Assembly: GCF_039525035.1 (NCBI RefSeq)
Contig: NZ_BAAAHE010000014.1
Span: 137,885 to 201,884 of the forward strand
Direction of reading: 5' to 3'
Length of the DNA stretch: 64,000 nucleotides
From: Sporichthya brevicatena
GTDB lineage: Bacteria; Actinomycetota; Actinomycetes; Sporichthyales; Sporichthyaceae
This document shows positions 1-60,130 of this stretch, piece by piece; position 1 is the first letter of the stretch; each line of letters begins with the position of its first letter. Under the pieces are notes generated by a model, which was not told the origin of the DNA, did not search any database, and saw only the letters and a list, made by a program, of their open reading frames with translations. The position numbers were made by a program, and so were the translations under genes.

Positions 1-73
1 GCGAGTGAGGCCTGGCTGCGGCGAGTGAAGCGCAACCCCGGGGGCGGGGCGGGGACGCGGCGGGGGTGGGGGG

Positions 74-7870: not shown

Positions 7871-8856
7871 TGACGGCCCGTTGGACCCGCCCGGTGTTGG
7901 TCCCGGCCTTGGCTGCGGTGCTCGCCGCCGGCGTCCCCGCCGCGCTGGCGACCCCCGCCCAGGCCGCGACCCAGCTGTGCGGCACCACGACGCTGTCGGT
8001 CGCACCCGAGGCCGGCCCCGCGAAGACCCTGCGCGCCGGCAAGGCCGTCGCCCGCGGGCTGTTCGTGACCTACAGCGACAACGACACCGTCCTCGACGGC
8101 GGCACCATCGCGCCGCCGGACGTGAGCTCGCCGCTGGCCGAGGCCTCGGTCGACCGCACCGGGTTCGGCCAGGCGGTCGCCTCGCCGTTCTACAGCCCGT
8201 ACAGCGACGCGGCCGGTCTGCCGAACGCCTTCACCGGCGCGGAGCTGCCGACCGGCGCGATCAGCGAGCCGAGCCGGGCCAAGGTCGCCGGCCGTCCGCC
8301 GCAGGACTCTCAGCTCGCCTTCGGCGGGCCGGGCGGCGACGCGTGCGTCCGGATCACCGACGGTCCGCTGGCCGAGGCCGCGGCCGTCGTCGCCGACCTC
8401 GCGCCGGGCGTCACGGCGCGCGTCGGTGACGTCCGTGCCCTGGCCGGGCCGGCTGCGACCGGGTCGCTGTCGACGTCGAAGGTCGTCCTGCTCGACGTCG
8501 TCCTCGGCACCCTGCACATCGAGCAGATCGTGCTCGACGCCCGCGCCGTCGCCGACGGCGCCGCGGGGGAGGGTGCAGCGACGAGCCTGGTCTCGGGCAT
8601 CACCGTCGGTGGGCAGGCTTTCCGCCTGACGCCGAAGGGCTTCGAGCCGGGGCCGGGGACGCCGGACCTGTCCGCGCTCCAGGCCGCCGGCATCGAGCTG
8701 GTGCTGCCGGGCAGCGCGACGCACACGGTCGCGGGTAGCCGCTCGTCGGCGCGGGCGACCGGACCGACGCTCCGGCTGACGACGCCGGACGGCCGGGTGC
8801 TCACGGTCGTGCTGGGTGAGGCGATCGCCGACGCTCAGCTCGACCGCATCGGCTGA
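7870..8856 (+). CDS. Secreted protein of transport locus I, unknown family
   Basis: 328 residues starting at an ATG that shares a base with the stop of the binding protein gene. A Sec signal peptide (MTARWTRPVLVPALAAVLAAGVPAALA, cleavage near ATPAQA-AT) is followed by a mature domain rich in small and hydroxylated residues with predicted beta character. It resembles in style and position the secreted proteins of loci II (23718) and III (57194), although it lacks their C-terminal membrane helix. I know of no function. Location between a binding lipoprotein and its permease suggests an extracytoplasmic helper of uptake. Confidence 0.75.
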   Translation: MTARWTRPVLVPALAAVLAAGVPAALATPAQAATQLCGTTTLSVAPEAGPAKTLRAGKAVARGLFVTYSDNDTVLDGGTIAPPDVSSPLAEASVDRTGFGQAVASPFYSPYSDAAGLPNAFTGAELPTGAISEPSRAKVAGRPPQDSQLAFGGPGGDACVRITDGPLAEAAAVVADLAPGVTARVGDVRALAGPAATGSLSTSKVVLLDVVLGTLHIEQIVLDARAVADGAAGEGAATSLVSGITVGGQAFRLTPKGFEPGPGTPDLSALQAAGIELVLPGSATHTVAGSRSSARATGPTLRLTTPDGRVLTVVLGEAIADAQLDRIG

Positions 8857-8896
8857 CCCCGCCGTTGACCTGACCTGACCTGACGGAGCCTCACAC

Positions 8897-11428
8897 GTGC
8901 TGGACCTGGCCCTCACCGGCCTGCCGCTCGGGGCGATGTACGGGCTGGCCGCCCTCGGCCTGCTCGTCGTGCACCGGACGACGGGGAACGTCGACCTCTC
9001 CCTCGGGGGAGTCGCGGCGGCGGCGGCCTACGTCTACCACCACACCAGCACGGGGGGAGGGCAGCCACGAGCGGTCGCGTTCGTGGCTGCCCTCGCGGTG
9101 GCCGCGGCCTGCGGCGGGGTGAGCGCGGCCGCGGCGCGCGTGATCGGGCCGGACCGTCCGATCACCGCCGCGGTGGCGAGCCTGGCCTGGGGTGGTGTGC
9201 TCACCGCGGGCTGCGTCCTGTTCTTCGGGCGGGACGTCCAGTTCGTCGCGCCCTGGGGTTCCGCCCGCTTCGACGTCGCCGGCACGACGCTGTCGGCCCA
9301 TCAGCTCCTCGTCATCGCGGTCGCGGTGATCGCGGTCGGCGCGGGGGCGGCCGTGCTCCGCCTCACCACGGCCGGCCTCGCCTGGCGGGCGTGTGCGGAC
9401 AACGCCCTCGGGGCGGTGCTGATCGGCCTGCGGCGCGGGCGCATCGAGGCCGGCTGCTACGTCCTCGCCGCCGTGCTCGCGGGCCTGGCCGGGGTGCTGC
9501 TCGCCCCGCTGCTCTACCTCGACGCCACCGCGCTCACCCTGTTCTTCCTGCTCAAGCCGGCCGCGGCGGCGGTCGCGGGCCTGCTGGTCAGCCTCCCGAT
9601 CGCCTTCGGCGCGGCGGTCTCGATCGGCGTGCTGGAGAGCGTGGCGGTCAAGTACCAGGACGTCCCCGGGCTGGGGGAGAGCGTCCCGTTCGCGGTCGCT
9701 GGTCTCGCGCTGCTGGCCCGCCGCGCCCGCCGCGCGCGGGAGTCGCGGGACACCGCCCTCGCCACCGGCCCGACCCACCCGCCGGGCACCGGACGTCTCG
9801 TCCCGGCGGCGGGCCTGCTCGTGCTCGCGCTGGCCGTCACCCCGTTGCTGACGGCCTATCAGGCTACGATCGCCGAGCTCGCGGCCATCACGGCCCTGCT
9901 CGCCGCGACCCACGTCGTCCTCACCGGATGGGGCGGTCGGCTCTGTCTGGCGCAGCCCGCGCTCGCCGGGGTCGGCGGCATCGTCGCCGCCCGCTGCGCC
10001 GCCGAGGCGGGCTGGCCGTTCCCGCTCGCACTGGTGGCGGGCGCGGTTGCCGCAGCCGGAGCCGCCGCCGTGCTCGGGATCTTCGTCGCCCGCGGCGTCA
10101 CCGGCCTGCCGTTCGCGTTGCTGACCGTCGCGTTCGGCGCCGCCGTCCACGGCACGCTGTTCACCTGGCCGCGGTTCGCCGGCACCGCCGAGGACCGGAC
10201 GCTGTCCACCGCCTCCGTCGCGGGCCTCGACCTGGGCGGGCACCGGTTCACGGCCACCGTCTTCGTGGTCACCGCGCTCGCGTTCCTCGCGCTGCGCACC
10301 TTCGCGCGATCGCGGCTCGGTGGGGCGCTGGTCGCCGGCCGTGAGCACGACCGGGCGGCCGCCGGACTCGCCCTGCCGGTCGTGCGGGCGCAGATCGCGG
10401 CGCTGGTGGTCGCGGGCGCTCTGGCCGGTCTCGCCGGCGCCCTGACGGCGTATCAGCTCGGCACCGTCGCACCGGAGCAGTCCCACCCGCTGACCGCGCT
10501 GCCGATCCTCTCGGCCGCTGCGCTCGGCGGGCTGGAGTCGCCGTGGGGTGCGCTGCTCGGGGCGGTGCTGCTCACGGTGGCCCCCGAGATCCTGCGCCAG
10601 GCCGATGCCCCCGACCTGGCGGCGCTGGTGTCGCCGGTCGTGCTGCTCGCGGTCGTTCTGCTCCGGCCCGGTGGGCTGGTCAGCCTGCGCCGCCCGGTGC
10701 GGCGGCCGGCGTTGCGCGGCGCGACGCAGCCGACCTCGGGGGCGCTCACCGTCCGGGGACTGACGGTCCGTTACGGGACGCGGACGGCCGTCGACGGCGT
10801 GGATCTGACGGTCGAACCGGGGGAGATCGTCGCCCTGGTCGGGGCGAACGGCGCAGGCAAGACGAGCCTGCTCGACGCGGTGGCCGGGGCGGTGCGGCCC
10901 GCGGCGGGGACGGTCCGCGTCGCCGGCCGCCGCGACGGGCTGATCGTGCGGACCCTGCAGTCCGGCGGCCTGTTCGGCCGGCTCACGGTGCGGGAGAACC
11001 TCGCCCTGCCGGCGCGCTGGCACGGCCGGCCCGAGCCGGACCTGCCGGCGGACCTCGCCGACCTGACGGACCGGGACGCGGGCTCCCTCGCGCACGGCAC
11101 CGCGCGGCTGGTCGAGATCGCCCGCGCCGCGTCGCTGCAGCCCGCCGTCCTGCTGCTCGACGAGCCGGCGGCGGGGCTGAGCCGCGCCGAGGCCGACCGG
11201 ATGCTGCGCCTGGTTCGCGAGCTCGCCCCCGACGCCGCGGTGCTGCTGGTCGAGCACGCGCGGCACGTCGTCGACGCCGCCGACCGGGTCGTCGTCCTCG
11301 ACGCCGGTGCCGTCCTTGCCGAGGGCCCGCCGGCGGAGGTCCTCGCCGACCCCGTCGTCCGCGAGGTCTACCTGGGCCTGCCGGCCGCTCTCGAGAGCGC
11401 CGAGCCCGTGCGGTCAGGGCAGGCGTAG
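8897..11428 (+). CDS. Fused LivH-LivM-LivG ABC transporter protein (locus I)
   Basis: 843 residues combining three normally separate proteins. Residues 1-280 are a LivH-type permease (GLPLGAMYGLAALGLLVVHRTTGNVDLS), about 290-600 a LivM-type permease, and about 615-843 an ATPase with Walker A ALVGANGAGKTSLL near residue 647, Walker B VLLLDEPAAGL and the switch histidine in VEHARH. The ABC signature is degenerate (LAHGTARLVEIARA instead of LSGGQ-like). GTG start with a weak GGAG upstream. No separate LivF lies nearby, so the second ATPase must come from elsewhere or the protein homodimerises. Its end overlaps the convergent PucR gene by 15 bases. Confidence 0.9.
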   Translation: MLDLALTGLPLGAMYGLAALGLLVVHRTTGNVDLSLGGVAAAAAYVYHHTSTGGGQPRAVAFVAALAVAAACGGVSAAAARVIGPDRPITAAVASLAWGGVLTAGCVLFFGRDVQFVAPWGSARFDVAGTTLSAHQLLVIAVAVIAVGAGAAVLRLTTAGLAWRACADNALGAVLIGLRRGRIEAGCYVLAAVLAGLAGVLLAPLLYLDATALTLFFLLKPAAAAVAGLLVSLPIAFGAAVSIGVLESVAVKYQDVPGLGESVPFAVAGLALLARRARRARESRDTALATGPTHPPGTGRLVPAAGLLVLALAVTPLLTAYQATIAELAAITALLAATHVVLTGWGGRLCLAQPALAGVGGIVAARCAAEAGWPFPLALVAGAVAAAGAAAVLGIFVARGVTGLPFALLTVAFGAAVHGTLFTWPRFAGTAEDRTLSTASVAGLDLGGHRFTATVFVVTALAFLALRTFARSRLGGALVAGREHDRAAAGLALPVVRAQIAALVVAGALAGLAGALTAYQLGTVAPEQSHPLTALPILSAAALGGLESPWGALLGAVLLTVAPEILRQADAPDLAALVSPVVLLAVVLLRPGGLVSLRRPVRRPALRGATQPTSGALTVRGLTVRYGTRTAVDGVDLTVEPGEIVALVGANGAGKTSLLDAVAGAVRPAAGTVRVAGRRDGLIVRTLQSGGLFGRLTVRENLALPARWHGRPEPDLPADLADLTDRDAGSLAHGTARLVEIARAASLQPAVLLLDEPAAGLSRAEADRMLRLVRELAPDAAVLLVEHARHVVDAADRVVVLDAGAVLAEGPPAEVLADPVVREVYLGLPAALESAEPVRSGQA

Positions 11429-25402: not shown

Positions 25403-25884
25403 GCCGGCACGGCGCCACCTTGACCCGCCCGTCCGCGTCCGCGCACCGAACGGCACCGGCGTCGATGCCGCCGTCGCCCTGGCCGGTCCGAACGACACGG
25501 CTGCTCACGCTCGTCGCGGTCCTGGCCGCCGTGGTGCTCGCCGTCGCCTGGTACGGCTGCTCGGGAGAGACCGTCTGGCGCATCCAGGTGCGGTGGTTCG
25601 GTCTCGGCCTCCTGGCGTGCGCCCTGAACGCCGCCGGCTGCCTGGCCTGGCTCGCGACCGGGATCCGGGCGCTGCGCCGCGAACGGGCGTGGACGACCGC
25701 CGAACTCCGGCGTCGCGAGGACCGCCCGACACCCGTGACCGCGGCGGTGCCGCTGCCGCGGACCGAGTTGGTCACGGCAGCGCGCATGCGCCGCTACCAC
25801 CGCGCCGACTGCCCGCTGATGCGCGGCAAGCCGACGGTGCCGGTGACGCCGGACCTGGCGCCCTGCGGCGTGTGCGCGTCATGA
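25399..25884 (+). CDS. Membrane protein with C-terminal HxxxC...CxxC metal-site motif (locus II)
   Basis: 161 residues. Two hydrophobic segments (LLTLVAVLAAVVLAVAWYG and FGLGLLACALNAAGCLAWL) are followed by a basic linker and a C-terminal YHRADCPL (His134, Cys138) and CGVC (Cys156, Cys159). The arrangement H-x3-C-x17-C-x2-C is suited to zinc or another metal and recalls Ada-like ribbon tails. The locus III counterpart at 53134 has the same FHRADCPL and CGAC. GTG start overlaps the previous stop; the ATG of the permease overlaps its own stop. Confidence 0.78.
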   Translation: MSRHGATLTRPSASAHRTAPASMPPSPWPVRTTRLLTLVAVLAAVVLAVAWYGCSGETVWRIQVRWFGLGLLACALNAAGCLAWLATGIRALRRERAWTTAELRRREDRPTPVTAAVPLPRTELVTAARMRRYHRADCPLMRGKPTVPVTPDLAPCGVCAS

Positions 25885-27791
25885 GCGACTACGTCCCCTA
25901 CCTCATCATCGGGCTGACGACGGGCTCCATCTTCGGGCTGTCCGCGATGGGGCTGGTGCTGACGTACAAGACCTCCGGCGTCTTCAACTTCGCGCACGGC
26001 GCTTTCGGTGCCAGCGCGGCCTACCTGTTTCTCTGGCTACGGGATCGGCAGGACGTGCCGTGGCCGCTGGCGGTCCTGATCGCGGTGGCGGCGCTGGGGA
26101 TCGTCGGTGGGCTGGTCATGGAACGTCTCGCGGACGGTCTGAGCCGCGTGCCGCCCGGCTACCGCATCGTCGCGACCGTCGGTCTGATGCTCGCCCTCAT
26201 CGCGGCGTTGCAGTACATGTTCTCGACTCGCCAGCTGGGCCTTGCGCCGTTCCTGCCTCGCGACGAGGCGTTCACGATCAGCGGCGTCCAGGTCAAGTAC
26301 GACCATCTGATCACCGCCGCGGTCGCGATCGTCGCGGCGATCGCGCTGTCGGTCTTCTTCCGCTACGCCCGGCTGGGCAAGTGCATGCGCGCGGTCGTCG
26401 ACAGCCCCCAGTTGATGGATCTCGCCGGGGAGTCGCCGGTCGCTGTACGCCGGTACGCCTGGCTGATCGGGTGCACGTTCGCCGCGGTCTCCGGGGTGCT
26501 GTTCGCGTCGACGCAGCAATCGGTGGACGCCCTGCTCCTCTCGCTGCTGGTGGTCCAGGCGTTCGGTGCGGCGGCGATCGGTGGGTTCACCAGCATCCCC
26601 CTCGCGTACGTCGGCGGGCTGGTCGTCGGTCTGGCGCAGGCGATCACCAGCAAGGAGGTCTCCGGCACGCCGTCACTGACCGGCCTGGACATCTCCATGC
26701 CGTTCGTCATCCTCATCATCGTCCTGCTGGCGATGCCGAAGCACCGGCTGCAGGAGATCGGGCTCGTGGTCAAACCGCGGGCGCCCAGGCCGAGCCCGCT
26801 GCCGCCTCGGCTTCGCGCCGGCATCGCCGCCGCGGTGCTGCTGGGCGCGGTGCTCGTGCCGTTCGTCGTCGGCTCGAAACTGCCGGTGTGGACCAACGCG
26901 CTGTGCCACGTCACGTTGTTCGCCTCGCTGGGGCTGCTGGTCCTGAGCTCGGGGCAGATCTCGCTGTGTCAGTGGGGCTTCGCCGCGGTGGGCGGGGTGA
27001 CCTTCGCGCGCATGCTCGACTCCGGCGTCCCCTGGGGCTTCGCGGTGCTGCTGGGTGCGCTGGTCACGGTGCCGGTCGGCGCGCTGGTGGCCATCCCGGC
27101 CATCCGGCTCTCCGGCCTGTACCTCGGGTTGGCGACGCTGGGCTTCGGCGTCCTGCTCGCCGGGTTCTTCTACCAACGCGACTACTTCTTCGGCACGCGG
27201 TCGCTGCCGACTGCGCGTCCGCAGGCCTTCGGGCTCGAGAGCGACAGGGGCTTCTACTACCTGCTGCTGGCCATTGCCGTCGCCACCTTGCTCCTCGTTC
27301 ACGGGATCGAGCGTTCCCGTCTCGGTCGACTGCTGCGCGGACTCGCCGACTCACCTCTGGCGCTCATCACGCTCGGCACCAGCGCGAACGTCACCCGCGT
27401 CATCGTGTTCTCGATCTCGGCGTTCCTCGCCGGCTTGTCCGGAGCGACGTTCTCCGCGTTGTTCGGCTCGATCAGCGTCGACCAGTTCGGCTACTTCAAG
27501 TCGATCGTGATCCTCGCAGTGCTCGTCATCTCCGGGCGGACCACGCTCAACGCTGCCGTCGTCGCGCCCCTGCTGCTCATCGTCCTCCCCGGGTACGTCA
27601 CGAACGCCGACTTCCTGGTGCTGGAACAGTTGGCCTTCGGTCTGCTGGCGATCGCGGCGGCCTTGTTCGCGCAGCGACCGCTCGGCGAACGTGAGGTTCG
27701 CGGACCCCTCGTCGCCGCGACGGCCCTGCGCGCCGCGCGGCCGACGGGCACCACCCCGGACCGGGCAGCGGCGCTGTCCCTCAGTCGCTAG
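25881..27791 (+). CDS. Fused LivH-LivM ABC transporter permease (locus II)
   Basis: 636 residues. The N-terminal half (to about 300) is LivH-like (GLTTGSIFGLSAMGLVLTYKTSGVFNFAHG) and the C-terminal half LivM-like (SGLYLGLATLGFGVLLAGFFYQRDYFFG, later ISAFLAGLSGATFSALFGS). Together about 16-18 membrane helices form the complete import channel. ATG overlaps the upstream stop. It is paralogous to 53640. The matching LivF lies immediately convergent at 27781 with an 11-base overlap, but no LivG gene is present in this locus. Confidence 0.92.
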   Translation: MSDYVPYLIIGLTTGSIFGLSAMGLVLTYKTSGVFNFAHGAFGASAAYLFLWLRDRQDVPWPLAVLIAVAALGIVGGLVMERLADGLSRVPPGYRIVATVGLMLALIAALQYMFSTRQLGLAPFLPRDEAFTISGVQVKYDHLITAAVAIVAAIALSVFFRYARLGKCMRAVVDSPQLMDLAGESPVAVRRYAWLIGCTFAAVSGVLFASTQQSVDALLLSLLVVQAFGAAAIGGFTSIPLAYVGGLVVGLAQAITSKEVSGTPSLTGLDISMPFVILIIVLLAMPKHRLQEIGLVVKPRAPRPSPLPPRLRAGIAAAVLLGAVLVPFVVGSKLPVWTNALCHVTLFASLGLLVLSSGQISLCQWGFAAVGGVTFARMLDSGVPWGFAVLLGALVTVPVGALVAIPAIRLSGLYLGLATLGFGVLLAGFFYQRDYFFGTRSLPTARPQAFGLESDRGFYYLLLAIAVATLLLVHGIERSRLGRLLRGLADSPLALITLGTSANVTRVIVFSISAFLAGLSGATFSALFGSISVDQFGYFKSIVILAVLVISGRTTLNAAVVAPLLLIVLPGYVTNADFLVLEQLAFGLLAIAAALFAQRPLGEREVRGPLVAATALRAARPTGTTPDRAAALSLSR

Positions 27792-28476
27792 CGCCGACGT
27801 ACTGCGCGGCGAGCGCGGTGGCGTCGAGCTCGGTCGGTTCCCCGACGAAGGCGAGCTCGCCCCGGTTCAACAGGTACACGTAGTCCGCGGATCCCAGGGC
27901 GCGGGCGACGTACTGCTCCACGAGCAGCAGTGACGTGCCCTCGGCGGCCAGGCGGGCGAGGAACGCGAAGATCTCGTCGACCACCTTCGGTGCCAGCCCC
28001 ATGCTGACTTCGTCGAGCAGCACGACCGCGGGCCGCTGGACGTAGGCGCGCGCGAGCGCGAGCATCTGCTGCTCCCCGCCGGACAGCGTCCCCGCCTGCT
28101 GATGCATCCGCTCGCCGAGTCGCGGAAACGCGGCGACGGCCCGGTCGAACGCCTCGGCCTCGGTCCCGGGCCGGGCCTGCACCTCGATGTTGTCGCGGAC
28201 CGAGAGCGACGGGAACACGCCACGGCCCTCCGGCACATGACACACGCCCGCAGCGACCAGACGGTGGGGCGGGGCAGCGGTGAAGTCCCGGCCGTCGACG
28301 AGCACCCGGCCGGCGGTCGGACGCAGCAAGCCACTCGCGACGCGCAACAGCGTGGTCTTCCCCGCGCCGTTGGGGCCGAGCAGAGCGACGACGCTCCCGG
28401 CCGGGACCCGCAGGCTCACCCCGCGCAGCACGGTGGCCCCGGCGTACCCGGCGTGGACGTTCTCGAGCTCGAACAC
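27781..28476 (-). CDS. LivF-type ABC transporter ATP-binding protein
   Basis: 231 residues, the normal LivF length. Walker A is [14 protein letters not shown] (near residue 33), the Q-loop region is HVPEGRGVFPSLSV, the signature is LSGGEQQMLALARA, Walker B is VVLLDEVSMGLAP, and it ends VGASD. It energises LIV-type import. GTG start at 28476. It is encoded opposite to the permease and downstream of the SCP2-like gene, so it would be transcribed from the 28.93 kb promoter rather than with its permease. Confidence 0.92.
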   Translation of the reverse strand: MFELENVHAGYAGATVLRGVSLRVPAGSVVALLGPNGAGKTTLLRVASGLLRPTAGRVLVDGRDFTAAPPHRLVAAGVCHVPEGRGVFPSLSVRDNIEVQARPGTEAEAFDRAVAAFPRLGERMHQQAGTLSGGEQQMLALARAYVQRPAVVLLDEVSMGLAPKVVDEIFAFLARLAAEGTSLLLVEQYVARALGSADYVYLLNRGELAFVGEPTELDATALAAQYVGASD

Positions 28477-49104: not shown

Positions 49105-51441
49105 ATGGACGCACGGATCGCGGAACCCTGGGGCGCACGGACTCCCTACGGGCCGGGGGAGACCTGGCCGGAGCGGGTCGACAGCTACCTCGCCGACGGG
49201 GTGAGTGAGGCTGACGTCGAGCGGTGGGTGCCGACGGCGAGCATCCTGCACTCCAACGGGGACGCGCTGGACGTCGCGGTGGCCGGGGGCCGGATCGTCG
49301 GGGTGCGCGGCCGCGCGCACGACCGCGTCAACCACGGCCGGCTCGGGCCGAAGGACCTCTACGGCTGGCAGGCGAACAACTCGACCGACCGGTTGACGCG
49401 TCCGCTGATCCGGCGCAACGGGCACCTGGTCGAGACCGACTGGGACACCGCGATGGACGCGATCGTCCGCCGGACCCGCGAGTTGCTCGACGAGCACGGG
49501 CCGTCCGCGATCGGCTTCTACACGTCGGGCCAGCTGTTCCTGGAGGAGTACTACACGCTGGGCGTCCTCGCGCACGGCGGGCTGCGCACCAACCACGTCG
49601 ACGGCAACACCCGGTTGTGCACCGCGACCTCCGCCGAGGCGCTGAAGCAGAGCTTCGGGTGCGACGGCCAGCCCGGCTCGTACGCCGACGTCGACCACGC
49701 CGACGTGATCGCGCTCTTCGGCCACAACATGGCGGCCACGCAGACCGTGCTGTGGTCGCGAATCCTCGACCGCCTCGCCGGACCGAACCCGCCGCAGGTC
49801 ATCTGCGTCGACCCGCGCCGGACGCCGGTGGCCGAGCACGCCACCGTGCATCTCGCGCCGCTGCCCGGGACGAACCTCGCCCTGATGAATGCGCTGCTGC
49901 ACGAGGTGATCGTGAACGGGTGGACGGACGAGGACTACATCGCCGCCCACACCGTCGGCTACGACGAACTCGCGAAGCAGGTGAAGCCGTGCACGCCCGA
50001 GTGGGCCGCGGAGATCTGCCGCGTGCCGGCGGCGGACATCCGCGCGGCCGCTCGGGTGGTGGGGTCCGCGCAGCGACTGCTGTCGACGGTCCTGCAGGGC
50101 TTCTACCAGTCGCACCAGGCGACCGCCGCGGCCGTGCAGGTCAACAACCTCAACCTCCTGCGCGGGATGCTGGGCAAGCCGGGCTGCGGGATCCTGCAGA
50201 TGAACGGCCAGCCCACCGCGGAGAACACCCGCGAGTGCGGCGCGGACGGCGACCTGGCGGGTTTCCGCAACTGGTCCTCCGACGCGCAGGTCGCGGACCT
50301 GGCGCGTGTGTGGGGCCTCGACATGCACGACATTCCGCACTACAGCCCGCCGACCCACGTGATGCAGCAGCTGCGCTACATCGAGGAGGGGTCGATCCGC
50401 ATGTGGTGGGTCTCGGCGACCAACCCGGCGGTGTCGCTGCCGGAGCTCGCGCGGATCCGGTCGATCCTCGCGCAGGAACGTCTGTTCCTGGTCGTCCAGG
50501 ACATCTTCCCGACCGAGACCACCGAGCTCGCCGACGTCGTCCTCCCGGCCGCCACGTGGGCCGAGAAGGAGGGCACGTTCACCAACGCCGACCGCACCGT
50601 GCACTACTCGGGTCGGGCGGTCGACCCCCCGGGTGACGCTCGGTCAGATCTCGACATCTTCCTCGACTACGCCCGGCGCCTCGACCTCCGCAACCGGTCC
50701 GGGGAGCCGCTGATCCACTGGACCGACCCCGCGAGTGCGTTCGCGGCCTGGCAGGAGTGCAGCCGCGGCCGCCCCTGCGACTACACCGGGTTGAGCTACG
50801 CGATGCTGCGTGAGCGCGGCGGCGTCCAGTGGCCGTGCACCGCCGAGAACCCCGACGGGACCGAACGGCTGTACGTGGACGGGAAGTTCTTCGCGGCCGC
50901 GGACTACTGCGAGACCTACGGCCGCGATCTGCTCACCGGCGCCCCGATGGAGCCGGCGGAGTACCGAGCCTTCAACCCGGACGGCAAGGCGATGTTCAAG
51001 GGCGCCGAGTACACGCCGCCGCCGGAGACCCCGAGCGACGATCACCCGTTCGTCCTGACAACCGGGCGGACGCTCTACCACTTCCACACCCGGACCAAGA
51101 CGGCCCGCGCCCCGCAGCTCGACGCCGCCGCGCCGGAGGTGTGGGTGGAGGTGTCGGCCCCGGACGCCGAGCGGCTCGGTGTCGAGGAGGGCGACCTGCT
51201 CGAGATCCGTTCCCCGCGCGGGAGTGTGCGCGCCCCGGCGCGGATCGGCGGGATCCGTGAGGGCGTGGTGTTCCTGCCGTTTCACTACGGCTACTGGGAC
51301 ACCAAGACCGAGGACGACGGCCACGAGCGCGCCGCCAACGAACTGACGATCACGTCCTGGGACCCGGCGTCGCGCCAGCCGTTGTTCAAGACCGCCGCGG
51401 TGTCGGTGCGGAACCTGACGAAGGACGGTGGGCAGCGATGA
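49105..51441 (+). CDS. Molybdopterin oxidoreductase lacking the N-terminal Fe-S cysteines
   Basis: 778 residues of the nitrate reductase/formate dehydrogenase family: GRLGPKDLYGWQANNSTDRLTRPLIRRNG, the probable Mo ligand in GNTRLCTATS (Cys172), ADVVLPAATWAEKEGTFTNADRTVHYSGRAVDPPGDARSD and the C-terminal FVLTTGRTLYHFHT...DLLEIRSPRGSVRA domain. The region that normally holds CxxCxxxC reads SILHSNGD, and no cysteine occurs before residue 172. An Fe-S cluster cannot form, so electron transfer must differ. The next gene is coupled by ATGA overlap. The physiological substrate is unknown. Confidence 0.9.
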   Translation: MDARIAEPWGARTPYGPGETWPERVDSYLADGVSEADVERWVPTASILHSNGDALDVAVAGGRIVGVRGRAHDRVNHGRLGPKDLYGWQANNSTDRLTRPLIRRNGHLVETDWDTAMDAIVRRTRELLDEHGPSAIGFYTSGQLFLEEYYTLGVLAHGGLRTNHVDGNTRLCTATSAEALKQSFGCDGQPGSYADVDHADVIALFGHNMAATQTVLWSRILDRLAGPNPPQVICVDPRRTPVAEHATVHLAPLPGTNLALMNALLHEVIVNGWTDEDYIAAHTVGYDELAKQVKPCTPEWAAEICRVPAADIRAAARVVGSAQRLLSTVLQGFYQSHQATAAAVQVNNLNLLRGMLGKPGCGILQMNGQPTAENTRECGADGDLAGFRNWSSDAQVADLARVWGLDMHDIPHYSPPTHVMQQLRYIEEGSIRMWWVSATNPAVSLPELARIRSILAQERLFLVVQDIFPTETTELADVVLPAATWAEKEGTFTNADRTVHYSGRAVDPPGDARSDLDIFLDYARRLDLRNRSGEPLIHWTDPASAFAAWQECSRGRPCDYTGLSYAMLRERGGVQWPCTAENPDGTERLYVDGKFFAAADYCETYGRDLLTGAPMEPAEYRAFNPDGKAMFKGAEYTPPPETPSDDHPFVLTTGRTLYHFHTRTKTARAPQLDAAAPEVWVEVSAPDAERLGVEEGDLLEIRSPRGSVRAPARIGGIREGVVFLPFHYGYWDTKTEDDGHERAANELTITSWDPASRQPLFKTAAVSVRNLTKDGGQR

Positions 51442-51920
51442 AGCTCGGCCTGGCCCTGCGGGAACTGCACCGCTCCGAGACCGAACTCGCCCAACGGCTG
51501 CTGCACGCCGGCGAGCGACACGAGGCGGACCAGGACGTCTACCACCTGTCCCGCACCCTCGCGGCCTGGTCGACCGAGCACGTCCGCGCGATCGCGGAGC
51601 AGGCCCGCCGTTACGACGAGGACCTCGACCCCGAGCCGCGGTTGGAGACGCGTCTGGTCGAACGTCTCCGGGAGCGCGCGGCCGAGGTCCTCGGCCGCGA
51701 GCCCGAGGCCGGGATGCTCCTGCTGCTCGACCTGCGGGAGATCTACCTGGCGGCCGCCGGTGTCTCGGTCGACTGGGAGCTGATCGCCCAGGGGGCGCAG
51801 GGTGTCCAGGACCTCCCGCTGATCGAGTTGGCCCAGCGCGCGCACACCGAGAACCTCCGTCAGATGCGCTGGGCGAACGCGAAGCTCAAGGAGTCCGCGA
51901 CCCAGGTTCTGCTCACCTGA
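51438..51920 (+). CDS. All-helical protein coupled to the Mo oxidoreductase
   Basis: 160 residues, predicted almost wholly helical: ALRELHRSETELAQRLLHAGERHEADQDVYHLSRTLAAWSTEHVRAIAEQA and later LLLLDLREIYLAAAGVSVDWELIAQGAQGVQ. Repeated His and Glu positions (RHEADQDVYHL, EHVRAIAE) suggest a ferritin-like four-helix bundle, but no complete metal site can be proved. ATGA overlap with the oxidoreductase gene implies joint function. Confidence 0.72.
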   Translation: MKLGLALRELHRSETELAQRLLHAGERHEADQDVYHLSRTLAAWSTEHVRAIAEQARRYDEDLDPEPRLETRLVERLRERAAEVLGREPEAGMLLLLDLREIYLAAAGVSVDWELIAQGAQGVQDLPLIELAQRAHTENLRQMRWANAKLKESATQVLLT

Positions 51921-52801: not shown

Positions 52802-53137
52802 ATGGATCTCGGACAGTGGCTCCGGCTCAGCTGGGACCGAGCCGGTGCGTGGGTCTGCGTGGTGGCCGGCGCGATCGCGCTGGTGCTGGGCTGGATCGGG
52901 GTCAGCAACAAGCTCTACACCGCCGAGCAGATCCCGTACGTCATCTCGGCCGGGTTCGGGGGACTGTTCCTGCTCGGTCTGGGCGGGATCCTCTGGCTGT
53001 CCGCCGACCTGCGTGACGAGTGGACGCAGCTGGACAAGCTGGAGGAGCTGCTCGCCCTCCAGGCCGAGGAGGACGCCGCCGCCCAGGCCGCTCCGACCGT
53101 CGTGACGCCGAACTCCCTGGTGGGGTCGGCTCAGTGA
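52802..53137 (+). CDS. Small two-helix membrane protein, transporter accessory (locus III)
   Basis: 111 residues from ATG 52802 after GGAGAGG. Two helices (AWVCVVAGAIALVLGWIGV and YVISAGFGGLFLLGLGGILWL) and a charged tail LSADLRDEWTQLDKLEELLAL, then an Ala/Val-rich end. Homologous to the 91-residue protein at 25127 (LRLSWDRA, PYVIS, WLSADLRDEW). First gene of locus III; its stop overlaps the start of the HRADCPL protein. No known function. Confidence 0.82.
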   Translation: MDLGQWLRLSWDRAGAWVCVVAGAIALVLGWIGVSNKLYTAEQIPYVISAGFGGLFLLGLGGILWLSADLRDEWTQLDKLEELLALQAEEDAAAQAAPTVVTPNSLVGSAQ

Positions 53138-53643
53138 CGACCCGTCAGCGACGTCGCCCCCCGGTGGCCGCGACGCTGTGGACCCCGGCCGACCTCGCGG
53201 TCACGTCGATCCTGGTCGGCGTCGGCGCCCTGCTGTGGTTCGTCGGCTGGTACAGCGCGTCGGACAAGCTCGTCGAGGGTGACCAGATTGCCGCCCTGAA
53301 CCTCTCCGCCGCCGGCACGCTGCTGGCCGGCGCGGGACTGGTGTCCTGGTTCCTCAACGGGCGTCGCTCGATCTGCACCCGCCGTCGCCGCCTCGTCGAG
53401 CGCCGGCGGGCTCAGCTGCGCCCGGCCACGGTGGCGCGCGCGGCCGCGCTTCCCGAGACCGCGGCGACCGCGAAGGAGAGCCTGGCCCCCCGCGCGTCCT
53501 CGCCCGTGCTGGTGGCGGGTGAGTCGCTGCGCCGGTTCCACCGCGCGGACTGCCCGCTCGCGACCGGGCGGAACTGGCCGGCGGCCGAACGCTCGGCGCA
53601 CGAGGCCGCGGGCCGCGCGGCGTGCGGAGCGTGCCGCCCATGA
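53134..53643 (+). CDS. Membrane protein with C-terminal HxxxC...CxxC motif (locus III)
   Basis: 169 residues. Two hydrophobic helices (LAVTSILVGVGALLWFVGWY and AAGTLLAGAGLVSWFL), a basic linker with ICTRRRRLVERRRAQLRP, and the tail FHRADCPL (His136, Cys140) and CGAC (Cys164, Cys167). The motif is shared with 25399, where HRADCPL is identical, making a conserved metal site likely. GTG and ATG overlaps couple it to both neighbours. Role in transport is inferred from position only. Confidence 0.8.
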   Translation: MTTRQRRRPPVAATLWTPADLAVTSILVGVGALLWFVGWYSASDKLVEGDQIAALNLSAAGTLLAGAGLVSWFLNGRRSICTRRRRLVERRRAQLRPATVARAAALPETAATAKESLAPRASSPVLVAGESLRRFHRADCPLATGRNWPAAERSAHEAAGRAACGACRP

Positions 53644-55688
53644 GCACCGTTCTCACCCGCGCGGGCGACGCCGCGCGCACGAACCTCAAGGGCCGTCCGC
53701 AGCAGATCGGCCTGACCGTGGTCCTGCTGCTGGTCGGCGGGCTCCTGGCGTCGGCGAACGACTTGTGGCCGTTCGTCATCAACGGCATCTCGGACGGCTC
53801 GATCTACGCTCTCGCGGCGCTCGGCCTGGTTCTGACCTTCAAGACCTCCGGCATCTTCAACCTCGCCATCGGTGGCCAGGCGGCCGCGTCGGCGTACGTG
53901 TTCTACAGCTTCCGGATCGACGCCGGGATGCCGTGGCCGGTGGCGGCGCTGCTGGCGCTGCTGATCGTCGGCATCGGCGGTTCGCTGATCCTGGAGCGGA
54001 TGGCCTACCTGCTGGCCGAGGCGCCCCCGGTCATGAAGATCGTGGCGACGATCGGTCTGCTGGTCTTCCTGCAGTCGGTCCTCACCGGCGCCTACGGCCC
54101 GGCGACCCTGCAGTTCTCGCAGTACCTGCCGACGGACAGCTTCGCGATCGGCGAGGTGCGCGTGCAGGCGAGCCAGGTCATCGTCACGGTCTTCGCTCTC
54201 GCCTCCACGGCCGGTCTGTACCTGTACTTCAAGCGCGCCCGCCTCGGTGTCGCGATGCAGGCCGTGGTCGAGGACCCGAACCTGCTCGCGCTGGAGGCGA
54301 CCAGCCCGGTCGTGGTCCGCCGCTACGCGTGGGCGATCGGCTCGTCGTTCGTCTCGATCTCGGGCATGTTGATCGCTCCGGGCCTGGGCATCCAGGTCAA
54401 CCAGATGCTGCTGCTCTACGTGACGGCGTTCGGCGCCGCGGCGCTCGGCGGGTTCTCCAGCCTGCCGCTGACGTTCGCGTCCGCGATCGGCATCGGCATC
54501 ACGATGAACATCCTGTCCGACAAGCTCGCCGGCCAGACCGACGTCGTGCTCTCGCAGCTCTACACGCAGGTGCCGTTCCTGGTCCTGGTCGCGGCGCTGC
54601 TGTTCGTGCCCAGGCGCAAGCTGATCGAGCGCGGTGCGAAGCGGGCCCGGCGGGCGACGCCGATCCGCCAGTTCCCGCCGCAGGTCATGCTCCCGGCCGG
54701 CGCGCTCGGGCTGTCGGCCGCGGTGATGGTCCCGTTCGTCGTCGACTCCGCCGACATCAACCAGTACACGACCGCGATCGGGTTCGCGATCGTGCTCGCC
54801 TCGCTGGGTCTGCTGATCTGGACCTCGGGCCAGCTCTCGCTGTGTCACATGGCGTTCGCCGCCGTCGGGGCCACGACCTTCTACCACGCGCAGAACGCCG
54901 GGTGGCCGTGGCTGCTCGCGCTGCTCGCGGGTGCGTTGGTCGCGATCCCGGTCGGTGCGCTGGTCTCGATCCCGTCGTTCCGTCTGTCGGGCACGTACCT
55001 GGCGGTGGCCACGTTCGGGTTCGGGCTGCTGTTCCAGAACCTGATCTACGCCACCGACTTCATGTTCGGCGCCGCCGACATCCGCTCGGTCTCCCGTCCG
55101 GAGCTGTTCGGCATGGACACCGCGAGCGACCGCGGCTACTACTACACGGCGCTGGTCATCGCGCTGGGGTGCGTCGCCATGATTCTGACGGTCCGTCGCA
55201 GCCGCCTCGGTCGTCTGCTCCGCGGCCTCGGCGACTCGCCGGCGGCCCTGGCGGCGCACGCGACCAACACGCGCCTGACGTGCCTGATGGTCTTCAGCCT
55301 CTCGGCGTTCCTGGCCGCGGTGGGTGGCGTCCTGATCGCGGGCGTCCCGCAGTCCGCCTCCGGCAACGCGGGTGGCTCGTTCGGGTACTTCAACTCCCTC
55401 GTGCTGGTGGCGGTCCTGACCTTCTGCGGCCGCCGGCCGATCCTGTCGCCGGTGATCGCGGCGGTGCTGTTCGTCGTCATCCGGATCTACGAGCCGTTCA
55501 ACAGCGAGACCTTCGTCGACTACCAGGGCGCGATCTTCGGTGCGCTCGCCCTCGGCGTGGCGATCGCCCCGGCGCTGCGGGTGCCGACGCTCGGCCGACG
55601 CGGCATCGCCCGCGTCGGGCGGCGCACCCCGACGGCCGTCCGGGTCCAGCGAGTTCAGGGCCGTGTGCGTGAGGGGGTGGCGGCATGA
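53640..55688 (+). CDS. Fused LivH-LivM ABC transporter permease (locus III)
   Basis: 682 residues. After an N-terminal arm, LivH begins ([35 protein letters not shown]) and LivM occupies the second half ([54 protein letters not shown]). Paralogue of 25881. ATG overlaps the preceding stop and the LivG start overlaps its stop, so a complete importer (permease, LivG, LivF, binding protein) is encoded in one operon here. Confidence 0.93.
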
Positions 55689-56509
55689 CGCGCGAGCTCC
55701 CGTCGCTGGAGATCGACGGCGTCACGGTCCGCTTCGGCGGTCTGGTCGCGGTCTCGGAGGTGACGCTGACGGCGCCGGCCGGGCAGATCACCGGCCTCAT
55801 CGGCCCGAACGGGGCCGGCAAGACCACGACGTTCAACGCCTGCACCGGGGTCGTCCCGGCGGCGAGCGGTTCCGTGCGGCTGGGCCGGACGGTCCTGGAC
55901 GGGCACGGCACCTCCAAGCGCGCGGCGCGTGGCCTGGGCCGCACGTTCCAGCGCATGGAGCTCTTCGACTCGATGACGGTCGTGGAGAACGTCGAGCTCG
56001 GCGTCGAGTCCTTCCTCGCCGCCGGCCGCCCCTTCGGGCAGATGTTCTGCCCGCCGGGGGAGCGCAGGAAGATCGCCGCGCGGGCCGCGGACGCCCTGGA
56101 ACTCTGCGGGATCACGGGCCTGGCCCGGCGCACCGCGGGGGACCTGTCGACCGGTCAGCGCCGGCTCGTCGAGCTCGCCCGCGCGATCGCGACCCCGTTC
56201 TCGTTCCTGCTCCTCGACGAGCCGTCCTCCGGTCTGGACCCCGAGGAGACCGAGAAGTTCGGGCAGATCCTGCTCGACTTCGTCGCCGACCGGGGCGTCG
56301 GGATCCTGCTCGTCGAGCACGACATGGCGCTGGTGTCCTCGATCTGCAGCTACATCTACGTCCTGGACTTCGGGCGGCTGATCCATCAGGGCCCGACGGC
56401 CGAGGCGCTCGCGTCTCCGATCGTCCTCGAGGCCTACCTCGGCACCGAGTCGAGTGCGCTGGACTCCGCAGCCGAATCGATCGACGGAGCGGAGGCAGCG
56501 CATGCTTGA
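55685..56509 (+). CDS. livG: LivG-type ABC transporter ATP-binding protein
   Basis: 274 residues. Walker [16 protein letters not shown] near residue 40, LivG-type [18 protein letters not shown], signature [16 protein letters not shown], Walker [15 protein letters not shown] and the switch in [13 protein letters not shown]. It pairs with LivF to energise import. Starts ATGA-overlapped with the permease and overlaps livF by eight bases. Confidence 0.93.
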
Positions 56510-57197
56510 GCTACGGGGCATCACCGCCGGCTACGACACCGGCACGGTGCTGCGCAACGTCGACCTGATCGTTCCGGACTCCTCGGTCGTGGCGCTGATC
56601 GGCCCGAACGGTGCGGGCAAGACCACCCTGCTGCGCGTCGCGTCCGGTCTGCTCAAGCCGACGGGGGGTCAGATCATCCTCGACGGCGTCGACGTCACCG
56701 GCCGCCCGACCGAGGACCTCGCCCGGCGGGGTATCTGTCACGTCCCCGAGGGGCGGGGCGTCTTCCCGGGTCTGTCGGTCGCGGACAACGTGCGCCTGCA
56801 GGCACCGCCGCAGGTCGACAAGCGTGCGATGGCCCGCGCGGCCGAGGCGTTCCCGCGCCTGGGGGAGCGCGCCACGCAGCTCGCCGGCACCATGAGCGGT
56901 GGTGAGCAGCAGATGCTCGCCCTCGCCCACACCTACGTCAGCGACCCCTCGATCGTGCTCCTGGACGAGGTGTCGATGGGGCTGGCGCCGAAGATCGTCT
57001 CGGAGATCTTCGAGTTCCTGGAGGGCCTCGCCCGGTCCGGGAAGTCCCTGCTGCTCGTCGAGCAGTACGTCGCGCGGGCACTGGAGTTCGCCGACTACGT
57101 CTACATCCTCAACCGCGGCCGCATCACCTTCGCCGGCGAACCCGGCGAACTCAGCGAGAGCGCCGTCGCCGAGTCCTACCTGGGAGCGAGTCGATGA
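56502..57197 (+). CDS. livF: LivF-type ABC transporter ATP-binding protein
   Basis: 231 residues from ATG 56502 after GGAGG. Walker [34 protein letters not shown], signature MSGGEQQMLALAHT, Walker B IVLLDEVSMGLAP. Close to the LivF at 27781, sharing LLLVEQYVARAL, with the same YLGAS/YVGAS ending. The stop overlaps the start of the secreted protein gene. Confidence 0.93.
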   Translation: MLELRGITAGYDTGTVLRNVDLIVPDSSVVALIGPNGAGKTTLLRVASGLLKPTGGQIILDGVDVTGRPTEDLARRGICHVPEGRGVFPGLSVADNVRLQAPPQVDKRAMARAAEAFPRLGERATQLAGTMSGGEQQMLALAHTYVSDPSIVLLDEVSMGLAPKIVSEIFEFLEGLARSGKSLLLVEQYVARALEFADYVYILNRGRITFAGEPGELSESAVAESYLGASR

Positions 57198-58543
57198 CCC
57201 ACCGCGCCGCAAAGCCGACCTCGAGCACCCGGCTGAGCCGGGCCACCGGCCGCCGCGTCGCCGCCGGTGCCGGGGCGATCGCCCTGCTCGCCGTGAGCGG
57301 CCTGGTGCTGGGCGGCTCGGCCCAGGCCGACGCCCCCACCGACTACGAGCTGCTCGCCGGCGCGAGCTCGCTCGACATCCACATCGCCGACAACAACCTG
57401 CCGGTGACCCAGGTCGTCGATGCGAGCCCCTACGGCGCCTCGGCGACCCTGTCGAGCTCCGGTGTCGTCAAGGCCGACGCCGGTGCCCCCTACGCGCCGT
57501 TCGGCTACTCGCTGCCCTCCACCGTGACCGGCCTCGGTGCGGGCAACCTGCCCGCGATCCCGCCGTTCCCCGGCTACGTCGCGGCCAGCTACCCGGCCAA
57601 CGCGATCGACGAGCAGAAGACCGGCGGCTACGAGCTCTCGGCCCGCACGGCGGAGCGCTCCTCGGTCGGCAGCGTCCGACTCGGTCAGATCGGCTCGGAC
57701 AGCTCGACCGGGTTCGCCATCGCCCGCGCCACCGCCAACGACGACGGCACCGTCACCACCGAGGGTGCCGCGGGTGCCTCGGCGTTCAGCTTCGGTGGGG
57801 TGCTCGACCTCGGCCGGGTGTCCTCGGTCCTGTCGATGACCAAGTCGCCGAACGGCAAGCCCGTCATCACCGGCACCACCGACCTCGGCACCGTCACCGT
57901 CGCCAGCAACTTCCCCTCCGGCATCCGGGACGACGGGTCGCTGGTCGCCGGTGCGCCCGTCCCGCTCACGCCGTCCTCGATCACCGCACTCAACGCCGCG
58001 CTCGAGCCGCAGGGCCTGGCCCTGACCTACCTGCCGCGCACGTTCACCTACACCGACGGCACCACCAGCACCGGCGCCCAGCCCGACGCGCGCAAGACGA
58101 TCCGCACGGTTTCCTCCGGTGCCTTGCAGGTGAGGTCGAGCCAGAACGTTCCCACCCAGGGCAAGGTCGACGTCGTCTACACCTTCGGCCGGGTCACCCT
58201 CTCCGCCACCAACGGCGGGTCCGTGACCACCGGCGCGGACGTCGTCGACTCCACCGTCGGGGGCATCTCACCCGAGCTGTCCGGAGCGATCGATGCCGCC
58301 GCCGGCCAGCTCCCGGGCGCACTCCCGCCCGACGCCGCCGCTCTGCCGGAGACGGCCACCGGCCAGCTTCCGGGTGCCGTGCCCACCGTCGAACTCGCGC
58401 CCGCGGCCTCGCCGCAGACCGGTGTCGTCGCCCTCGCCGGGCGCGCGGCCTCCTACGGCGAGAGCCCGTACCTGATGCTCGTCGTCGCGGCGCTCGGCGC
58501 CCTCGGCGCGGCGCACCTGGTCCGTTTCCTCGCCGTCAAGTAA
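57194..58543 (+). CDS. Secreted, C-terminally anchored protein of transport locus III
   Basis: 449 residues. A signal peptide (AAGAGAIALLAVSGLVLGGSAQA-DAP) leads a Ser/Thr/Gly-rich ectodomain with predicted beta strands (SSLDIHIADNNLPVTQVVDASPYGASATLSSS). Near the end is a Pro/Ala linker with a repeated GQLPGA motif (three times), then one membrane helix PYLMLVVAALGALGAAHLV and a short basic tail. Same plan as 23718. Encoded between livF and the binding lipoprotein, so it is an integral part of the operon. Function unknown. Confidence 0.78.
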   Translation: MTHRAAKPTSSTRLSRATGRRVAAGAGAIALLAVSGLVLGGSAQADAPTDYELLAGASSLDIHIADNNLPVTQVVDASPYGASATLSSSGVVKADAGAPYAPFGYSLPSTVTGLGAGNLPAIPPFPGYVAASYPANAIDEQKTGGYELSARTAERSSVGSVRLGQIGSDSSTGFAIARATANDDGTVTTEGAAGASAFSFGGVLDLGRVSSVLSMTKSPNGKPVITGTTDLGTVTVASNFPSGIRDDGSLVAGAPVPLTPSSITALNAALEPQGLALTYLPRTFTYTDGTTSTGAQPDARKTIRTVSSGALQVRSSQNVPTQGKVDVVYTFGRVTLSATNGGSVTTGADVVDSTVGGISPELSGAIDAAAGQLPGALPPDAAALPETATGQLPGAVPTVELAPAASPQTGVVALAGRAASYGESPYLMLVVAALGALGAAHLVRFLAVK

Positions 58544-58597: not shown

Positions 58598-60130
58598 ATG
58601 AAGTTCAGGCGATCCGCCTCATCGCGCGTCCCGGGACGCCGCCAGTTGACCGTCGGTCTGCTGGTCGGCGCCCTGACGGCGACCCTCGCCCTGTCCGGAT
58701 GCGGCTCCCGGCGTGACAGCCAGGAGTTCGTCGCGGCGAACTCCGCCGGCGTGGTCGCGGCCCCCGACGGCAGCACCGGGTTCGACACGGGCGCCGCGCC
58801 CGGTGCCGACACCGGCGCCGGAATCGGGGCCGTCGACCCCGGCGCGGTGGCAGGTCCGGACACCACGGCTCCCGGTCAGAGCGCCGGCGGCGCGGCCACC
58901 GCGGCGCCGGGCAAGGCGACCACCGCGGGCGGCGCCTCGACCGGCACCGCGGCGCAGCCCGGCAAGGCGGCCGCGGGCAGCGGCAACAAGTGCGCCACCT
59001 CGGGTTCGGTCGTGACGCTCGGGAACATCAGCACCCAGTCCGGTCTGCTCGGTGAGCTCTTCAAGGGCCTGCCGGAGGCGCTGCAGGTCTGGGCGAAGTC
59101 GGCCAACGCCTGTGGCGGCTTCGGTGGCCACCCGGTGCGCGTGGTCTCCGCCGACGACGGTGGCGACCCGGCGACGGCGCTGACCATCGCCCAGCGCATG
59201 GTCCAGAACGACAAGGTGCTGGCCTTCATCGGCCTGGACATGCCGCTGTCCGTCGCCGGCATCGAGAAGTACCTCAAGGAGGTCGGCGTCCCGTCGATCG
59301 GTGGCGACTCCTCCGAGCTGCCGTTCTTCGAGAACCCGATGTTCTTCCCGATCGGCCCCTTCGTCAGCGTCATCGGCGCGGCGGACGCGGAGATCGCCAT
59401 CAGCAAGGGCGCGAAGAAGATCGCGGTCTTCTACTGCACCGAGATCCCGAACTCCTGCGGCCCGGTCGCGGCGAGCAAGGACCTGCAGGTCGGGTCGCCG
59501 GTCGTCAAGGCGATGGGCGGCGAGATCGTCCTGTCGCAGAAGGCGTCCGTCGTCGCGCCGAGCTACACCTCGCAGTGCATCGCGGCCAAGCGCGCCGGGG
59601 CCGAGGCGATCATCGCCATCCTCGACGGCCCCAGTGTCGGCCGCCTGGCGACGAACTGCCACGCGCAGGACTACAAGCCGATCTTCCTCGGCATCAGCCT
59701 CGGTCTGAGCGCGAACCTCACCGACTACGCGGCCCTGAACCAGAACAACTTCTTCGCGCCGCTGAACACCTTCCCGTGGGTGGACGCCTCGCTGCCCGGT
59801 CCCAAGAAGTACGCCGAGGACCTGCAGAAGTACTTCGGCCGTCCGCTCGGCGGTCCGAGCCCGGCGATGGCCTACGCCTCGGGTGTCCTGGCGGCGCACG
59901 CGGTCCGGGCCGGCCTGCCGGCCAACCCGACCTCGGCCGACGTCATCAAGGGTCTCTACACCATCAAGAACGAGACCCTCGGTGGTCTGGTCGCCCCGCT
60001 GACGTTCACCCCGAAGCTCCCGCGGGACGGCATCACGTCCTGCTACTTCCTGGTCGCGATCTCTCAGGGCAAGTTCGTCGCGCCCGAAGGCTCCAAGTGC
60101 CTGAAGGTCAACGCCAAGGGGCCCCAGTAA
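58598..60130 (+). CDS. LIV-type substrate-binding lipoprotein (locus III)
   Basis: 510 residues. Lipobox TLALSGC sets the acylated cysteine at residue 35. A Gly/Ala/Thr/Pro-rich linker extends to about 130, followed by a type I binding domain (VVTLGNISTQSGLLGELFKGLPEALQVWAKSANACGGFGGHPVRVVSADDGGD...). Cysteine pairs suggest disulfides in the outer domain. RBS GAGAGGAACC. Last gene of the transport operon before a hairpin. Ligand unknown. Confidence 0.9.
   Translation: MKFRRSASSRVPGRRQLTVGLLVGALTATLALSGCGSRRDSQEFVAANSAGVVAAPDGSTGFDTGAAPGADTGAGIGAVDPGAVAGPDTTAPGQSAGGAATAAPGKATTAGGASTGTAAQPGKAAAGSGNKCATSGSVVTLGNISTQSGLLGELFKGLPEALQVWAKSANACGGFGGHPVRVVSADDGGDPATALTIAQRMVQNDKVLAFIGLDMPLSVAGIEKYLKEVGVPSIGGDSSELPFFENPMFFPIGPFVSVIGAADAEIAISKGAKKIAVFYCTEIPNSCGPVAASKDLQVGSPVVKAMGGEIVLSQKASVVAPSYTSQCIAAKRAGAEAIIAILDGPSVGRLATNCHAQDYKPIFLGISLGLSANLTDYAALNQNNFFAPLNTFPWVDASLPGPKKYAEDLQKYFGRPLGGPSPAMAYASGVLAAHAVRAGLPANPTSADVIKGLYTIKNETLGGLVAPLTFTPKLPRDGITSCYFLVAISQGKFVAPEGSKCLKVNAKGPQ

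Follow-up and report, generated by a model that had tools for sequence, protein, structure and literature searches.

Small Membrane Hairpin Proteins, One With an Ada-Like Zinc-Type Tail, Accompany a Clade of LIV-Type ABC Importers in Actinomycetota

Gene Organization at the Two Loci

The window analyzed here is a stretch of 64,000 nucleotides from the genome of Sporichthya brevicatena. It contains two loci (II and III) at which a fused LivH-LivM permease (LivHM) is directly preceded by the genes of two small membrane proteins, hereafter A and B (Table 1). An earlier note on this DNA had described a two-helix protein and a second membrane protein in front of the permease, and the open reading frames at both loci are arranged in this way. 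The four-base overlaps that it reported are likewise present at loci II and III, GTGA at the A/B junction and ATGA at the B/permease junction. Between the two loci, the A proteins share 45% and the B proteins 23% pairwise identity within the alignments. The A alignment shows three conserved segments, RxQWDRA, QLPYxxSGG, and SADLRDEWR, in this order. None of the four small proteins in the window scored above the cut-off of any Pfam or NCBIfam family.

Table 1. Features of loci II and III in the window.
Feature	Position	Strand	Basis
Locus II secreted protein, C-terminal TM anchor, 470 aa	23718..25130	+	Family search
Locus II protein A, 91 aa	25127..25402	+	ORF; A alignment
Locus II protein B, 161 aa	25399..25884	+	ORF; B alignment
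Locus II B codons His134, Cys138, Cys156, Cys159	25798..25875	+	Tail pattern
Locus II fused LivH-LivM permease	25881..27791	+	PF02653
Locus II LivF-type ATPase, opposite strand	27781..28476	-	ABC_tran
Locus III protein A, two-TM hairpin, 111 aa	52802..53137	+	Genome copies; A alignment
Locus III protein B, two-TM hairpin and predicted cytosolic tail, 169 aa	53134..53643	+	AF2 model, pLDDT 86
Locus III B codons His136, Cys140, Cys164, Cys167; putative Ada-like Zn(His-Cys3) site	53539..53634	+	Alignments, Ada match
Locus III fused LivH-LivM permease, ATGA overlap with B	53640..55688	+	PF02653, two stretches
Locus III LivG-type ATPase	55685..56509	+	Sequence; Walker A GPNGAGKT
Locus III LivF-type ATPase	56502..57197	+	Sequence; Walker A; start set at MLELRGI
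Locus III secreted protein, C-terminal TM anchor, 449 aa, third accessory protein	57194..58543	+	Without Pfam match; genome family of 31
Locus III substrate-binding protein	58598..60130	+	Peripla_BP_6

Few nutrient importers are as common as those of the LIV type. The permease, the ATPases, and the binding protein of the module are ordinary members of the LIV-type (HAAT) importers LivFGHMJ/K, with the permease being a LivH-LivM fusion. No small subunit dedicated to LIV importers is known to us, and to our knowledge the textbook LIV importer comprises neither a small hairpin nor a secreted anchored subunit.

Near locus II, neither a LivG protein nor a binding protein was recognized. One ATPase or the binding protein appears to be missing from several further modules of the genome as well, which may mean that importers share these components. 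The neighbors of locus II encode an AMP-binding ligase, an enoyl-CoA hydratase, and an aldehyde dehydrogenase, and these catabolic genes hint at carboxylic or hydrophobic substrates.

Module Copies in the S. brevicatena Genome

In the 5.2 Mb genome, all matches to A and B and every other PF02653 permease were read region by region. The B query found 27 places and the A query 31 strong ones, giving about 31 sets, i.e., 31 modules containing A. In 30 of them, A, B, and LivHM follow one another directly, and in the remaining one (L025) they share a cluster in another order. The four-base overlap occurs at the A/B junction in 15 of 29 cases and at the B/permease junction in 23. One module (L042, 7615-8535) carries a natural in-frame A-B fusion of 306 residues, which retains an intact tail and stands before the LivHM permease. 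The zinc-like tail was found in 28 of the 31 modules, namely in 26 ordinary B proteins, in the A-B fusion, and once in a second frame. In L028 (7196-7803), B is divided over two frames by either a frameshift or an assembly error. Two near-identical modules (L020 and L021) lie at contig ends (C20 and C8), reflecting a recent duplication or an assembly artefact.

All permeases of the genome linked to A and B form a single clade in the permease tree, outside which lie seven fused permeases without A and B, including that of locus I in the window (8897-11428). The clade also includes one module with neither A nor B (L036); its nested position indicates secondary loss of the two genes. The tail is absent from the B proteins of L031, L033, and L035, the modules being otherwise kept. 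These three paralogues together with L036 indicate that parts of the set are dispensable for some importers. The tail in particular is not strictly needed, and its loss argues that transport itself does not require it.

The earlier note did not include a third partner that we found in nearly every module, a secreted protein of about 450 residues. The position of its gene varies: in locus II it precedes A, and in locus III it follows LivF. The family has 31 members in the genome, with a signal-like N-terminus in 30 and a C-terminal TM anchor in 30; it has no Pfam match. L036, the module devoid of A and B, retains it.

Homologues in Other Actinomycetota

In each of four relatives from the same GTDB family, A is present in 11-24 copies. 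Scanning named genomes yielded 43 loci, spanning Streptomyces antnestii, S. jeddahensis, Streptomyces sp. CB01635, Actinophytocola MAGs, Haloechinothrix halophila, Nocardioides marmoriginsengisoli, Sporichthya MAGs, Frankiales, and Acidimicrobiia MAGs. In all 39 of these loci for which the contig extends far enough, the genes follow the order A-B-LivHM, and homologues are spread over several classes of Actinomycetota. In other families, searching the class with A and the phylum with a single-gene profile revealed one gene that combines an A-like hairpin with a B-like tail, the search of the phylum giving matches in 30 of 396 genomes.

Each of the 40 best-scoring distant loci has a LIV permease within 3.5 kb, either fused or as separate LivH and LivM, and nearly all have ATPase genes beside the permease. 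By chance, a random position in the S. brevicatena genome falls within 3.5 kb of a LIV permease in 7.6% of cases; the LIV density in the other genomes is lower, judged by their permease counts, and the chance range is about 2-8%. At a few distant loci (L108, L122, L125, L126, L130, and L131), the hairpin gene, though adjacent, runs on the opposite strand. Searching the 40 distant loci with the profile of the secreted anchored protein gave relatives in 10. Among 20 weaker matches, a LIV permease is near 14, one is cut off by the end of its contig but has an ATPase gene, and five are not near LIV genes, three of which belong to a different, acidic or short hairpin family sharing the tail. A search of a plasmid collection gave no match.

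Homologues thus overwhelmingly adjoin LIV permeases rather than lying mostly away from them. The earlier proposal, a two-gene membrane module dedicated to LIV-type importers, is supported by the 31 modules of the genome and by the complete linkage in the 39 named and the 40 distant loci, which together greatly exceed what chance would give.

The gene order could also reflect a function in assembly or quality control, in which A and B would help to insert or fold the fused LivHM and then leave, with the tail recruiting cytosolic machinery. Genes placed directly before the permease with four-base overlaps would fit co-translational assembly, and some permeases of the clade, as in L036, manage without A and B. 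However, one shared factor would be expected to serve many transporters, whereas one pair is found per transporter, co-diversifying in 31 copies. Single-gene forms, moreover, often follow the ATPase genes or stand beside unfused LivH and LivM, so that we find assembly factors an improbable explanation.

Topology and Kinship of A and B

Both A and B contain two TM segments. The mean number of Lys and Arg residues is 2.5 for A and 4.8 for B before the TM segments, 0.7 and 0.9 between them, and 3.1 and 4.2 after them. From this distribution, the positive-inside rule predicts both ends of A and B, hence also the tail of B, to be cytosolic. The AlphaFold2 model of B comprises helices at residues 18-43 and 48-104, followed by a flexible linker and the tail. 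Comparison of the whole B model with known structures (Foldseek, VIA-align) retrieved generic helical hairpins only, and a sequence search of the PDB returned nothing for B and nothing significant for the tail. SLATT/DUF4231 matches stayed below the cut-off and were confined to P0004 (DUF4231, E 0.029, 15.2 vs. 24.7 bits; SLATT_1, E 0.23).

The predicted cytosolic termini make a c-type heme unlikely. Such a protein needs CxxCH on the outer side, and we found CxxCH in only 3 of 67 tails, so the heme-like role put forward in the earlier note had to be abandoned. More generally, a heme- or electron-carrying protein might be suspected from the presence of CxxC and a His, but the scarcity of CxxCH, the cytosolic topology, and the match to the Ada zinc domain described below leave it hardly any probability.

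A pair of two-TM hairpins with a long cytosolic helix, modeled at residues 48-104, could alternatively take part in transmembrane signaling. A and B would then relay the state of the binding protein or of the secreted protein via the tail to a kinase, a regulator, or a CoA-ligase, not to the importer. The linkage to the secreted anchored protein and the catabolic genes nearby are in line with this possibility. However, besides LivG/F the neighborhoods show no constant cytosolic partner gene, and the extramembrane loop is too short for sensing a ligand by itself; we therefore regard signaling as highly unlikely.

The profiles of A and B are homologous to each other (E 4e-10, profile comparison). 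In the tree of hairpins, A (71/71) and B (69/69) each split off cleanly, with the single-gene forms placed between them. The simplest history would be that a single gene encoding hairpin and tail was duplicated, that A lost the tail and B kept it, and that the set was subsequently expanded, to 31 copies in S. brevicatena and presumably together with the importers.

A Conserved His/Cys Site Resembling the Ada Zinc Domain

Among 20 diverse B proteins, the only invariant columns of the alignment are one Trp and the four residues His136, Cys140, Cys164, and Cys167. In 40 aligned tails, only the His and the three Cys are invariant, and the same four ligands are invariant in the single-gene forms, together with residues of the hairpin. 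All 67 tabulated tails, from B and single-gene relatives, have the pattern HxxxC-(17..24)-CxxC; since these tails were chosen by the pattern itself, the independent evidence for conservation comes from aligning complete proteins, B as well as the single-gene forms. The module proteins found to lack the pattern are only the three tail-less paralogues and some distant tail-less hairpins.

The His/Cys site was correctly recognized in the earlier note as the conserved part of B, its ligands being retained throughout these alignments. The note had delimited it as the segment HRADCPL, which is indeed identical in the two window copies while the rest has diverged. As a conserved unit this segment does not hold, because the exact string occurs in 2 of 67 tails, which are the two window copies, and beyond the four ligands its identity is mostly a matter of chance. 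What is conserved instead is the unit H-x3-C-(17..24)-C-x2-C. Conservation restricted to the ligands supports a folded metal domain.

The tail profile aligns to residues 32-75 of E. coli Ada with all four ligands in register, the His corresponding to Cys38 and the three Cys to Cys42, Cys69, and Cys72. The alignment score is 23.9, compared with 19.5 for the best of 400 shuffled Ada sequences, 200 of which kept the Cys residues in place. AlphaFold2 predicted the tail alone with a pLDDT of 90, and its best PDB match was Ada (1zgw). The Foldseek E-value was only 1.8; after realignment, three chains had Z ≥ 2, all of them Ada (for 1u8b, Z 5.0 and 2.7 Å over 48 residues). The N-terminal domain of Ada (PF02805; E. 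coli Ada 22-74; 1u8b, 1zgw, 1wpk) and the tail have in common the order and spacing Cx3C...Cx2C and the signature G(F/R)RPCxxCxP; the predicted fold of the tail matches that of Ada modestly, over the 48 residues. About 26 residues separate the ligand pairs in Ada and 17 to 24 in the tails.

The tail differs from Ada in its first ligand, in its location on a membrane hairpin instead of a DNA-binding repair protein, and in falling below the Pfam cut-off. None of 40 tails exceeded the cut-off of Ada_Zn_binding (PF02805), and one gave a weak match (E 0.011). The position of the methyl-acceptor Cys38 is occupied by His in 67 of 67 tails, and Ada chemistry at this residue is therefore not expected. 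On account of the Pfam score and the replaced Cys38, we call the tail Ada-like without filing it as an Ada domain. By profile and, more modestly, by predicted fold, the tail is most readily interpreted as an Ada-like zinc-type domain, in which zinc would be the presumed metal, rather than as an unfamiliar type of metal site.

Other families were also compared. DUF6233 (PF19746) gave matches below its gathering score in 22 of 40 tails, the best at 3.5e-5; its Pfam entry says "family of unknown function" and nothing more, and no paper on it was found in the open-access literature. Zinc-associated anti-sigma factors are defined by the motif HxxxCxxC (PMC2877774), which occurs in 0 of 67 tails, and were rejected. 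RslA and RsrA resemble B in having an actinobacterial cytosolic His/Cys zinc site, in RslA on a membrane-associated protein, but differ from it by this motif.

In the three weaker matches of the other two-TM family (L134:210-872, L135:5268-6119, and L136:5232-5606), a tail of the form YHxxxCR...GYEPCxxCxPD is found away from LIV genes, with long acidic/basic linkers in two of the three. An Ada-like tail on a different two-TM family suggests a module of wider use among membrane proteins.

A Proposed Role in the Importer

We propose that, in Actinomycetota, one clade of LIV-type ABC importers has A and B as integral accessory subunits. The linkage, the coupled reading frames, the homology of A and B, the fusion of the two in nature, and their joint diversification across 31 copies are the basis of this reading. 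The hairpins, with both ends in the cytosol, would probably pack against the membrane domain of LivHM, most likely as an A-B heterodimer. Following its flexible linker, B would expose an Ada-type Zn(His-Cys3) domain to the cytosol beside the LivG/LivF ATPases, where this zinc knob may dock near the ATPases and stabilize or regulate the assembled importer. On the outer face, the secreted partner with its C-terminal anchor would work together with the binding protein. Taken as a whole, importer subunits with a zinc-type tail that stabilizes or regulates the importer beside the ATPases are in our judgment the probable solution; the zinc, the physical contact with the permease, and the docking or regulatory role are what we infer from it. 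A more far-reaching version, a kind of LIV importer with three extra subunits in which the Ada-derived domain of B gates the ATPases on a redox, alkylation, or zinc cue, seems to us rather doubtful.

Regulation could also be the very purpose of the tail, if its Zn(His-Cys3) site sensed cytosolic redox state, electrophiles, or zinc and gated the importer. By analogy, such a switch might work through disulfide formation with release of zinc as in RslA/Hsp33 or through alkylation as in Ada. Ada uses a zinc-bound Cys chemically, which would speak for a switch, as would the invariant Cys3His site amid diverging sequence and the predicted cytosolic location of the tail. Actinobacteria are also known to have zinc/CxxC redox switches on membrane-associated proteins, e.g., RslA (PMC2877774). 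However, a structural zinc site predicts conservation of the ligands equally well, the position of the reactive Cys38 of Ada is the invariant His, and the tails carry no extra conserved reactive Cys. We consider a switch unlikely and retain the subunit reading, in which the tail may have a stabilizing or regulatory role.

A possible parallel by general description is CbiN and similar small ABC/ECF subunits, which are two-helix accessory subunits encoded beside an importer, as A and B are. CbiN belongs to cobalt ECF systems and, as far as we know, has no zinc tail; no Pfam or NCBIfam match to it was reported for A or B. In open-access papers we found no description of the A/B pair, the subscription literature being outside the search, and no curated Pfam or NCBIfam family covers A or B above the cut-off. 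The parts (an ABC importer, an Ada-like zinc domain, and a small membrane subunit) are of known kinds, and their combination is, as far as could be tested, new. Many soil-type actinobacteria carry one or two hairpin proteins beside LIV importers, and these look like dedicated importer subunits. If this is true, three subunits of a large transporter class escape annotation pipelines, and the zinc fold of Ada has been reused on membrane proteins. A phylum-wide family with 31 copies in one genome and a recognizable zinc domain offers an experimental handle in a single gene with four residues to mutate.

Two further regions of the window are of note. Immediately upstream of locus III (49105-51920), the gene of a molybdopterin oxidoreductase overlaps that of a 160-residue protein without Pfam match. 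Locus I (6452-11428) comprises genes for a binding protein, a 328-residue protein without Pfam match, and a fused permease ORF of 843 residues, with no A or B. This ORF matches LivG better than LivHM and may represent a permease-ATPase fusion.
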